NCBI GenBank assembly: GCA_005772855.1
Contig: SXIK01000093.1
Span: 1-34,859 of the forward strand
Direction: 5' to 3'
Source: Planctomycetia bacterium
GTDB taxonomy: Bacteria; Planctomycetota; UBA8108; SXIK01
DNA: 34,859 bases
In this document: positions 1-3,351 of the stretch, one piece after another
Numbering within the stretch: position 1 is the first letter of the stretch
Layout: each line of letters begins with the position of its first letter
Made by a program: the position numbers and the translations under genes
Notes under the pieces: model-generated
Seen by the model: the letters and a program-made list of their open reading frames with translations, nothing else
Databases searched by the model: none
Told to the model about the DNA's origin: nothing

Positions 1-78
1 ACTCGTTCGCAAGCCAGATTCACTGTCTCCCCAGGCCGCCTTTTTCTTGAGGAGTCCCCCTTCCCAGCGAGGAGGAGG

Positions 79-389
79 GGCGCCACCAGGCGCCATGGCA
101 TGGTGGAGGTCTTCTACCCCCCCGCGGAGTATATACCGCACGCGGGCAGTGATGAGACCTTTTGCAGCCTGCGAAAGGTTGCGGCTGCTCGCGCCAGAGG
201 CGTCCGGCGCCCATCAGGCGCCGAGGGGGGGGTTTGCGGCGAGTTGGCGGAGCCGCAAACGGCTCGGAGGGAGCCGGCGCCAGCGAGAGCTGGCGGCTCC
301 CGAGAGCCTGGCCCGGAGTCGCACGCGCAGCGTGCGACCGGAGGGGCCGCGTGTCGCGGCCGTCGTGGGGGAGGGTCCGCCTCCCCCAC
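79..389. repeat. Array of GC-rich hairpins (non-coding)
   Basis: A dense run of inverted repeats. The arms I can read are GGCGCC 79-84/89-94, CCCGCG 121-126/CGCGGG 141-146, GCAGCC 164-169/GGCTGC 183-188, GGCGCC 206-211/217-222, GAGCCG 250-255/CGGCTC 260-265, GCCAGC 279-284/GCTGGC 289-294, GGCTC 295-299/GAGCC 304-308, GTCGCACGC 318-326/GCGTGCGAC 330-338, GGCCGCG 345-351/CGCGGCC 355-361, and GTGGGGGAGG 365-374/CCTCCCCCAC 380-389. Most loops are 3-5 nt. Several reading frames are open across it, but this is expected at such GC content and none has a recognisable domain. The part from 285 on recurs at the other end of the window. It could be a structured RNA or a REP/BIME-like element; the sequence alone does not decide. 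Confidence 0.7.
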
Positions 390-466
390 CCGCCGAAACG
401 AGCAGCAGACTTGAGATGGTCTTCCTCTGCCCATTCGGAATGTCTCACGTGTGGGCGCGCGAGGTA
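285..466 (+). repeat. Dispersed repeat, copy A (inverted relative to copy B)
   Basis: The reverse complement of this stretch matches 34633-34859. By eye, 99 of 107 bases agree between 360-466 and 34633-34739. The block 285-356 differs from 34786-34859 by two substitutions and a one-base insertion. Between the blocks copy A has 3 bases where copy B has 46. Similarity stops sharply at 466/34633, which marks one real end of the element. The other end is not visible because copy B runs off the window. It carries no transposase or obvious target-site duplication. Confidence 0.9.
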
Positions 467-470
467 TAAT
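465..470 (+). promoter_or_regulatory. Candidate -10 element (TATAAT) of the cytochrome operon
   Basis: A perfect TATAAT hexamer lies 19 bases before the first possible ATG of the cytochrome gene at 490. The segment 17 bases upstream (442-447, GTCTCA) is a poor -35 match. The hexamer straddles the repeat border: the first two bases belong to the repeat and the rest is unique sequence. In GC-rich DNA a perfect TATAAT at this distance is suggestive but not proof. Confidence 0.4.
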
Positions 471-489
471 TTGATGGTACGAGTTTTCC

Positions 490-3351
490 ATGTATCAGGA
501 GCGCATGACTCGATCCGATCACCGAGGGAACTCGCCGCCGTCTGACTGCATGAGCCAGAAACCGATTCAGCCGCTCCTCGATGCCAGGGGCAATCCCTAT
601 CTTCCAGCGGTCGCACCCGTGCTCAGGAAGGTGCTCATCGGGATCTTTGTCGCGGTCGCGATCCTGAGCGCGAACGGAGCCTACCTTGCCGCGATCACGC
701 TCCTCGGCCACTGGACGGGCAAGGAATATCAAAACCCATTCTATTTCTGGATGTTCCTGCTTCACATCGTGGTTGGGCTCCTCATGACGGCTCCATTCGT
801 TGCCTTCGGCGTGCTTCACATGCGCACCGCAATCCTTCGACCCAACCGTCGTGCCGTCCACGCCGGAATCGCGCTCTTCTCGGCGGGATGTGTGGTCCTT
901 GTCTCCGGCTGCGCCCTGATGAAACGCGACCTGGGTGAGCCGTGGAATGGCATCGCCTATTGGCTTCACCTTGCCTCACCCATCGTCGCAGTCCTGCTTT
1001 ACGTCTTTCACAGGCTCCAGGGTCCCGCGATCGCGTGGAAGTATGCCTGGGCCTGGGGCGCCAGCGTCGGGGTCTTCGTCGGCGTCATGGTGCTCCTTCA
1101 CTCGCAGGATCCGAGGCAGTGGAACCAGGTGGGGCCCAGGGAGGGCCAGAAGTACTTCCAGCCCTCCCTTGCCCGCACGGCCACGGGCAACTTCATCCCC
1201 GCAAGGACGCTCCAGATGGATGAGTATTGCCTCAAGTGCCATCCCGACACCTACTCGGACTGGTTTCACTCGGCCCATCACTTCTCGAGCTTCAACAATC
1301 CGGTCTACCGCTTCAGCGTGCGCGAAACGCGTCGGGTTGCACTTGAGCGAGACGGAAGCACGCAGGCCTCCCGCTGGTGCGCCGGATGCCATGATCCCGT
1401 CCCCTTCTTTAGCGGCCGATTCGACGACCCCGACTTCGACGACTTGAACGACCCGACCGCCCACGCCGGGATCACCTGTACGATCTGTCACGCCATCACG
1501 AACATCAACTCCACCCTGGGTAACGCCGACTTCACCATCGAGGAGCCGCTCCACTACCCATTCGCCTTCAGTGAGAACCCGTTCCTTCAGTGGATCAACA
1601 ACCGCCTCGTGAAGGCGAAGCCAGGATTCCACAAGCGCACTTTCTTGAAACCAGAAATCCACAAGTCAGCCGAGTTTTGCTCCACGTGCCACAAGGTGCA
1701 CATCCCGAAGGAGGTCAACGCCTACAAGGATTTCCTCCGGGGACAAAACCATTACGACAGTTACCTGCTGAGCGGGGCCTCCGGCCACGGAGCGAAGAGC
1801 TTCTACTATCCACAGAAAGCGTTCGTCAACTGCTCCGAGAGCTGTCACATGCCGCTTCGCGATTCGTTCGACTTCGGGCACAAGGACGGCAAGATTCACA
1901 ACCACCTGTTTCCGGGAGCCAACACGGGCCTGGCAGAGCTTCGCGGCGACGAGAAGACGCGCAAGGCGCACGAGGAGTTTCTCCGCGACGGCCAGTTGCG
2001 GATGGACATCTTCGCGCTGCGAGAAGGCGGCACGATCGATGGCCCCCTCTCGGCGCCGATACGCCCCGAGCTTCCCCTCCTCCAACCCGGGGGCAAGTAC
2101 CTGGTGGAGGTCGTGATCCGCACGCTCAAGATGGGTCATGCGTTTACGCAAGGAACCTCCGACTCGAACGAAGTCTGGGTGGAGTGCGAGGCCAATCTCG
2201 AAACCGCGGGTGGCACAATCGCCATCGGGAAAAGCGGCGGGATGGATGCCAGGGGCTTTGTGGACCCGTGGTCCCATTTTGTCAATACACTCATGCTCGA
2301 TCGAAACGGGAACCGCATCGATCGTCGAAACCCACAGGACATCTTTGTGCCGCTGTACAACCACCAGATCGGGCCAGGCTCGGCGCAAGTGGTTCATTAC
2401 CTTCTGAACGTTCCAGCCGGGGCTACCGGAGCCGTCGAGATCTCCACACGACTCAAGTACCGGAAGTTCGACCGCACGTTCATGGAGCATGTCTTTGGTA
2501 AGGAGGGTGCGCCCAACTTCAAGCCCGTGGTGCTCTGTGAGGACAGTGTGCACCTGCCTGTGGCAGGAGCCGATGGAAGGCCCTCGATCGAGGGGACCTC
2601 ACAGACTTCGCCCATCGAGCCGTGGCAGCGCTGGAACGACTACGGGATCGGCCTCCTTCTCGAGGGATCGGAAGGCTCGGAGAAGGGCGAGCTCAAGCAG
2701 GCCGAGGAGGTCTTCAAGAAAGTCGCGGAGCTCGGGCGGGCGGACGGCCACCTCAACCTCGTCCGCGTCTACTTCAAGGAGGGCCGCCTGGATGACGCCG
2801 TGAACTCCGCGCGCAAGGCCATCGACCACCCACAGCCGCCGCCGCCATGGGTAGTCTCGTGGCTGAGTGGCCAGGTCAACCGGCAGAATGATCACCTGGA
2901 CGCCGCGATCCAGGACTTCAAGGCAGTTCTGGCTACCCGGGCGCCCGAGCGAGGCTTCGACTTTTCGAAGGACTACGACGTCTGGAACGAGCTGGGCCTC
3001 ACGCTCTTTCATCGCTCAAAACAAGGTCCCAGGGAAGAGAGGAAGCGGTTCCTCATCGAGAGCCGTGACGCCTTCCTGGAGACTTTGAAGCTCGACGCGG
3101 AGAACATGACCGCCCACTGGATATTGAACCAGATCTACGCACAGCTCAACCAGTTCGCTCGCGCAGAGCTCGACACAACAGCCGAAATGGCCACGCTGGC
3201 GACCACGAAGCGGCACCTTGAGCTCTTCAATCGCTACAGGCCAGACGACAGCGCACGGAATCGGGCGCACAAGATCTACCGCGAGCGAAACCCCGCTGCC
3301 AACAAGGCGGCACAGTCGATTGTCATCTACGATTTGAAGCCAAAGCCATGA
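490..3351 (+). CDS. Membrane-anchored multihaem c-type cytochrome with TPR tail
   Basis: A 953-residue protein, likely an extracytoplasmic electron carrier or oxidoreductase; its substrate is unknown. About five membrane segments are visible (residues 46-70, 83-110, 121-142, 154-175, 182-204). Four CXXCH haem motifs follow (247-251, 297-301, 330-334, 397-401), then an unusual CX3CH (448-453, CSESCHMP). This layout resembles cytochrome c554-like proteins. A beta-rich stretch follows (about 520-690) and then TPR-like helices (about 720-900). Histidines H92/H110 and H160/H174 sit inside membrane helices and could bind b-type haem. The start is uncertain: ATG 490 has no clear ribosome site, ATG 505 has AGGAG at 497-501 but only 3 bases away, and ATG 550 is also possible. 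The stop overlaps the next start (ATGA), so the two are probably co-translated. Confidence 0.85.
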   Translation: MYQERMTRSDHRGNSPPSDCMSQKPIQPLLDARGNPYLPAVAPVLRKVLIGIFVAVAILSANGAYLAAITLLGHWTGKEYQNPFYFWMFLLHIVVGLLMTAPFVAFGVLHMRTAILRPNRRAVHAGIALFSAGCVVLVSGCALMKRDLGEPWNGIAYWLHLASPIVAVLLYVFHRLQGPAIAWKYAWAWGASVGVFVGVMVLLHSQDPRQWNQVGPREGQKYFQPSLARTATGNFIPARTLQMDEYCLKCHPDTYSDWFHSAHHFSSFNNPVYRFSVRETRRVALERDGSTQASRWCAGCHDPVPFFSGRFDDPDFDDLNDPTAHAGITCTICHAITNINSTLGNADFTIEEPLHYPFAFSENPFLQWINNRLVKAKPGFHKRTFLKPEIHKSAEFCSTCHKVHIPKEVNAYKDFLRGQNHYDSYLLSGASGHGAKSFYYPQKAFVNCSESCHMPLRDSFDFGHKDGKIHNHLFPGANTGLAELRGDEKTRKAHEEFLRDGQLRMDIFALREGGTIDGPLSAPIRPELPLLQPGGKYLVEVVIRTLKMGHAFTQGTSDSNEVWVECEANLETAGGTIAIGKSGGMDARGFVDPWSHFVNTLMLDRNGNRIDRRNPQDIFVPLYNHQIGPGSAQVVHYLLNVPAGATGAVEISTRLKYRKFDRTFMEHVFGKEGAPNFKPVVLCEDSVHLPVAGADGRPSIEGTSQTSPIEPWQRWNDYGIGLLLEGSEGSEKGELKQAEEVFKKVAELGRADGHLNLVRVYFKEGRLDDAVNSARKAIDHPQPPPPWVVSWLSGQVNRQNDHLDAAIQDFKAVLATRAPERGFDFSKDYDVWNELGLTLFHRSKQGPREERKRFLIESRDAFLETLKLDAENMTAHWILNQIYAQLNQFARAELDTTAEMATLATTKRHLELFNRYRPDDSARNRAHKIYRERNPAANKAAQSIVIYDLKPKP

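Follow-up and report, generated by a model that had tools for sequence, protein, structure and literature searches.

A run of GC-rich hairpins in a Planctomycetia bacterium as the end of an older repeat and a complete MITE with a core shared among Planctomycetota elements

The beginning of contig SXIK01000093.1 of a Planctomycetia bacterium (34,859 nucleotides analysed in full and referred to here as the window) contains a dense run of GC-rich hairpins upstream of cytochrome genes. The original prediction for positions 79-389 was a series of ten hairpins representing a structured RNA, a REP/BIME-like mobile element, or a folding or termination barrier. What is this run of hairpins, and does its structure serve the host or the DNA that carries it?

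Hairpins and repeats at the beginning of the window

Counted without overlap, perfect stems of at least 6 bp with loops of 3-5 nt occur seven times in positions 79-389 (79-94, 205-223, 250-265, 278-295, 318-338, 345-361, 365-389), and the total reaches about ten if shorter or imperfect stems are added. Dinucleotide shuffles of 79-389 had on average 0.91 such stems (maximum 4), and other 311-base stretches of the window beyond its first ~600 bases never more than three; dyad symmetry is thus indeed above the expectation from base composition. Folding is also far more stable than in shuffled controls, a comparison suggested along with the original prediction, with z = -7.3 for RNA folding of 79-389. 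For the element (130-468), z was -6.1 on the plus strand and -7.5 on the minus strand, and folding with DNA parameters gave z = -5.9. Perfect stems of 7, 9 and 10 bp are all present (345-361, 318-338 and 365-389, respectively), but the 9-bp stem owes its outer pairs to T319, which is unique to the window copy among the aligned copies (the family consensus at this position is G). Therefore, the breaking of two pairs of 318-338 noted for a second copy (copy B) is partly the family norm. The count of about ten is correct as well, but the interval straddles two repeats and combines an F2 end (~69-133) with the greater part of F1 (134-466). The hairpins are real but do not make up an independent RNA gene.

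The genome to which the window belongs (5.03 Mb, 244 contigs) gave 44 matches with window positions 60-480 as query. In this search, copies are 79-97% identical over their matched parts, and many matched parts of the dispersed F1 copies show 95-98% identity. In a multi-copy alignment with flanks, the sequence from TACCGCACGCGG through GCGCGCGAGGTA is common to the copies, and everything outside differs. The ends are imperfect 25-nt terminal inverted repeats (TIRs) and are usually flanked by TA (Table 1). Complete copies are 176-409 nt long; no longer copy with both ends was found in the assembled contigs, and no transposase or open reading frame is present inside F1 among the copies and further ends examined. 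F1 thus combines several features of a MITE: it is short (<~600 bp) and without transposase, has TIRs, and is dispersed in high number as near-identical copies. Positions 134-466 of the window are a complete MITE with ~90 copies in the genome.

Table 1. Features of the window
Feature	Positions	Strand	Basis or remark
Right-hand part of older F2 element, GAGGAGGAGGGGCGCCACCAGGCGCC...GGAGTATA	69..133	+	F2 consensus, ~40 copies; same end at C230 without F1; left half degraded/not recognisable; TATA end abuts F1
TA flank, left copy of inferred TA target duplication	132..133	.	TA precedes 54/61 left ends
Complete F1 MITE, 333 nt	134..466	+	Sharp boundaries in multi-copy alignment
F1 left TIR, TACCGCACGCGGGCAGTGATGAGAC	134..158	+	Shared TIR pattern: 131 genome matches, 0 with reversed-pattern control
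Core hairpin H1, CGGCGCC-CATCA-GGCGCCG	205..223	+	
Polypurine linker, consensus GAGGAGGGGGA	224..232	+	Conserved between families
Optional hairpin block (stems 250-265, 278-295, 318-338)	233..343	+	Comparison of 222, 265, 333 and 367+ nt copies
Core hairpin H2, GGCCGCG-TGT-CGCGGCC	345..361	+	
Core hairpin H3, GTGGGGGAGG-GTCCG-CCTCCCCCAC	365..389	+	
F1 right TIR, GTCTCACGTGTGGGCGCGCGAGGTA	442..466	+	89 right ends in the genome at <=2 mismatches
TA flank, right copy of inferred target duplication	467..468	.	TA follows 54/62 right ends
F1 copy B, with complete right end, truncated at the contig end	34633..34859	-	Inverted repeats I1 and I2

Many contigs of this genome start or end within F1 copies (e.g., C67, C117, C188, C209), and the repeat is probably behind many of the breaks in this assembly. 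At positions 462-490 of the window, the right end of F1 and the flanking TA make GGTATAAT shortly 5' of position 490, where the cytochrome c554-like gene may start; a search of this region gave no -35 box to go with it.

Positions 79-131 do not belong to F1 but are the right part of F2. This second TIR family (~152 nt, ends TATACTCC.../...GGAGTATA, ~40 copies, most of them with 80-97% identity to the query) possesses the same hairpin series and core as F1. The F2 element in the window is older than the F1 element that abuts its TATA end, and several other F1 copies adjoin F2-like ends. The C230 locus was considered as an empty site for F1 and rejected, as this paralogue diverges exactly at the F2 end. 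The ends of the two families are similar (TACC[GT]C.CGCG in F1, TACTCC[GT]CGCGG in F2), and F1 and F2 may therefore share one transposase class. A third type, F3 (L270), is rare and has CTGAG at both ends.

F1 copies differ in their modules. In the 222-nt form, H1, H2 and H3 are adjacent and the optional block is absent, whereas in the 333-nt copy of the window this extra hairpin block separates H1 from H2; in longer copies, a segment made up in part of tandem CCCTCGCTCCA units takes the place of the second arm of H2. Size variants thus correspond to hairpin modules gained or lost between GGAGG linkers. Since the module junctions fall in recurring GGAGGGG linkers, the pattern suggests linker-to-linker recombination as the source of the variants, and modules would be exchanged or lost at the repeated GGAGGGGG linkers. 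A block related to the optional block of F1 is present in G001, which matches the NC_groundwater_1473 MAG by sequence identity and belongs to the same family as the genome studied here: G001 loci L036 and L039 carry a hairpin block CCGGAG-stem-ACCGGAGG resembling it, and in L039 this block forms a near-tandem repeat of ~140 nt.

A three-hairpin core in other Planctomycetota

H1, H2 and H3, split in the window by the optional block, form a core of ~85 nt that is common to many-copy elements with different ends and targets in other Planctomycetota. An exact pattern across H2-H3 was found at 27 loci, nearly all in Planctomycetota MAGs. Two of them, L122 (JAHFDS010000095) and L144 (JAFGBI010000107), are labelled as Myxococcales or Polyangiaceae and reflect either horizontal transfer or wrong binning of planctomycete contigs. 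With a covariance model of the core, matches were obtained in at least 6 of 392 genomes of the phylum, including the window's genome; with partial cores taken into these counts, there are at least 37 copies in G332, at least 34 in G146 and at least 11 in G392, and at least 113 matches of all kinds in the window's genome. The viral contigs and plasmids searched gave no match. The outer ends around the core vary from genome to genome and the bases preceding H3 from family to family. The unpaired linker GAGGAGGGGGA and the loop CATCA are conserved between families and genomes.

Covariation among copies had been named as a check of the original prediction. It was found between element families but not above chance among the copies of the window's genome. 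Five of the seven H1 pairs occur as two pair types, both Watson-Crick, and compensatory pairs were also found in H2 (two) and H3 (one, plus G.U variants). These differences mostly distinguish families of different genomes and can be seen on ten sequences as well. Note that the pair counts come from a structure-based alignment made by hand, as MAFFT misaligned H1 of G160 and, in one family, H3, and that the covariance model's own rows under-report variation in H2 and part of H3, which were fixed by the pattern scan. Within the window's genome, F2 has 3 double compensating changes, where 3.1 are expected, and F1 has none; A.C and G.U mismatches number 47 vs 30 in F2 and 9 vs 8 in F1 (an A.C mismatch is G.U on the opposite strand). 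Because compensation is not in excess and A.C is at least as frequent as G.U, selection on landed copies for an RNA of this strand is not apparent. Substitutions in F1 are less frequent in stems (1.8%) than at unpaired sites (4.7%), which could reflect some constraint on each copy.

The joint conservation of stems, unpaired linker and loop points to selection on the core in active source elements, in which it may have a function. The best-surviving alternative is that compensation in the core is mutational, i.e. produced by arm-to-arm template correction of quasi-palindromes, the core being simply an old shared interior. Near-perfect palindromes with tiny loops are the known substrate of such correction, and landed copies appear unconstrained apart from the modest difference in rate between stems and loops. 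Arm correction leaves the conserved unpaired linker and the CATCA loop unexplained, and we regard this origin as possible but the less convincing reading.

Orientation and possible host functions

The elements of the window's genome show no preferred orientation relative to genes (23:32 at left flanks, 30:28 at right flanks), and the same holds for G146 (14:14, left). For G332, 22 of 26 upstream genes face the element. At the G332 loci L205-L264, the element begins inside CTGAG, and the TGA within it serves the upstream gene as stop codon: in 18 of 20 copies, a frame open for 100 codons or more runs up to this TGA. Most right ends carry CTGAG as well. If insertion into this asymmetric target is tolerated where the stop codon is kept, the G332 bias would be explained by the insertion site, with no need for a strand-specific function. 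A bias of 7:1 was seen in G392. In G007 (JAFGKN contigs L123-L146), the core and the downstream gene point the same way in 11 of 12 cases, and no known target asymmetry accounts for this.

These data bear on two further explanations, both improbable. According to one, the hairpins are a terminator or replication barrier selected site by site, for which very stable GC stems on both strands and the frequent position of G332 elements 3' of a stop codon could be adduced. The termination barrier of the original prediction is unlikely, as positions 1-700 contain no terminator-like site with a U-run; moreover, elements of the window's genome show no facing preference, and copies decay.

Slightly less probable still is a host-serving structured RNA gene or cis-regulatory RNA dispersed in many copies. 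The strong fold, the compensatory changes between families, the location 5' of the cytochrome gene, and the biased orientation in G332 (22:4), G392 (7:1) and G007 (11:1) are in its favour, but the window's genome and G146 are without bias, the bias of G332 is accounted for by the asymmetric CTGAG target holding the stop codon, and within one genome compensation is at chance level and G.U is not in excess. No Rfam family corresponds to the hairpins: no match at the gathering threshold was found in the window, and matches at 1-700 were at chance level. The structured-RNA interpretation is therefore weak, and a host RNA function of individual copies is unlikely, because the decay of copies within the window's genome shows neither compensation nor any bias of strand or orientation.

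Least probable is a REP/BIME mobilised by a tyrosine (RAYT) transposase: REPs were reported in Planctomycetes (PMC3733652) and are likewise intergenic palindromes in high copy number, but Y1_Tnp (PF01797) has no match in the window's genome (5 of 14 control genomes were positive), F1 possesses genuine TIRs with TA flanks and lacks a GTAG tag, and instead of a single palindrome of 20-40 bp with a GTAG or CGTC tag there is a chain of different hairpins. What remains of the REP/BIME-like suggestion is mobility, in the form of a TIR-flanked MITE, TA...TA, with ~90 copies.

Mobilisation and relation to known elements

Our preferred reading, which we consider quite probable, is that the cluster is a complete non-autonomous F1 transposon lying beside the TATA end of F2 and moved in trans by a TA-type DDE transposase, with the core kept in source elements. 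A TA-inserting DDE-type transposase (IS630 or IS427 type) would bind the F1 ends and move the element in trans; the TA flanks are the sign of a possible mobilisation of the IS630/Tc1 or IS427 type. F1 and F2 would thus depend on TA-targeting machinery, and their relatives in other genomes on other machinery. The core palindromes, as cruciform, single-stranded hairpins or RNA, may aid replication, transposition or persistence of the element, and landed copies would afterwards decay with no host function.

No autonomous partner with F1 ends was found in the assembled contigs, an assembly that breaks in repeats. F1 ends without a nearby mate, read outwards for ~3 kb in search of transposase genes, revealed only short copies or lone ends. 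The sole DDE_3 match in the genome belongs to an IS630-like element (L098, contig C126, ~1885-3211) with inverted ends AGTGCCGTCTTTCATAAGTTCCTGTGCAT, and it was rejected as the partner of F1 because these ends differ. An IS66-like transposase (identified by eye) is located in contig C63 (L150) beside an F1 left end lacking a right end, possibly owing to an IS insertion into F1. This candidate was rejected as well, since the IS66 family makes 8-bp duplications.

A further-reaching proposal, which we put forward tentatively and do not favour, regards the core itself as a mobile structural cassette. This small hyperparasite would have taken on the ends of unrelated transposons again and again, to be spread in each planctomycete by the transposition machinery resident there. 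Its ends would then target TA in F1 and F2 and CTGAG with the stop codon in F3 and G332, and would be of other kinds in G007 and G146/G160.

The nearest MITE to F1 is RUP of Streptococcus pneumoniae (~107 bp, TIRs like those of IS630-Spn1), which is also short, gene-free, present in high copy number, equipped with TIRs, inserted at TA and often located near other mobile repeats (PMC3049150, PMC2229807). RUP is AT-rich and has a named partner, whereas F1 is 176-409 nt long, very GC-rich and modular, and its partner was not found. The BOX repeats of S. pneumoniae and S. suis are modular too; in S. suis, the same boxB modules can be enclosed by either of two pairs of end modules (PMC3049150), which makes BOX the closest precedent for a shared interior under different ends. 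No sequence similarity to BOX is claimed, and here a fixed three-hairpin core is found across several genera and families and with two or more types of target. Correia/NEMIS and similar bacterial MITEs are non-autonomous, fold strongly and have TA ends (PMC2229807), but mostly form one long end-to-end stem, whereas F1 is a chain of short separate hairpins.

F1 and F2 are therefore MITEs with a shared interior, a variant of familiar parasitic DNA. Neither the core sequence nor a description of this defined repeat system of Planctomycetota was found in the open-licence literature searched. In this system, ends and target sites change around a conserved interior structure, and if the core is a selected cis-structure, the interior of a MITE would not always be filler.
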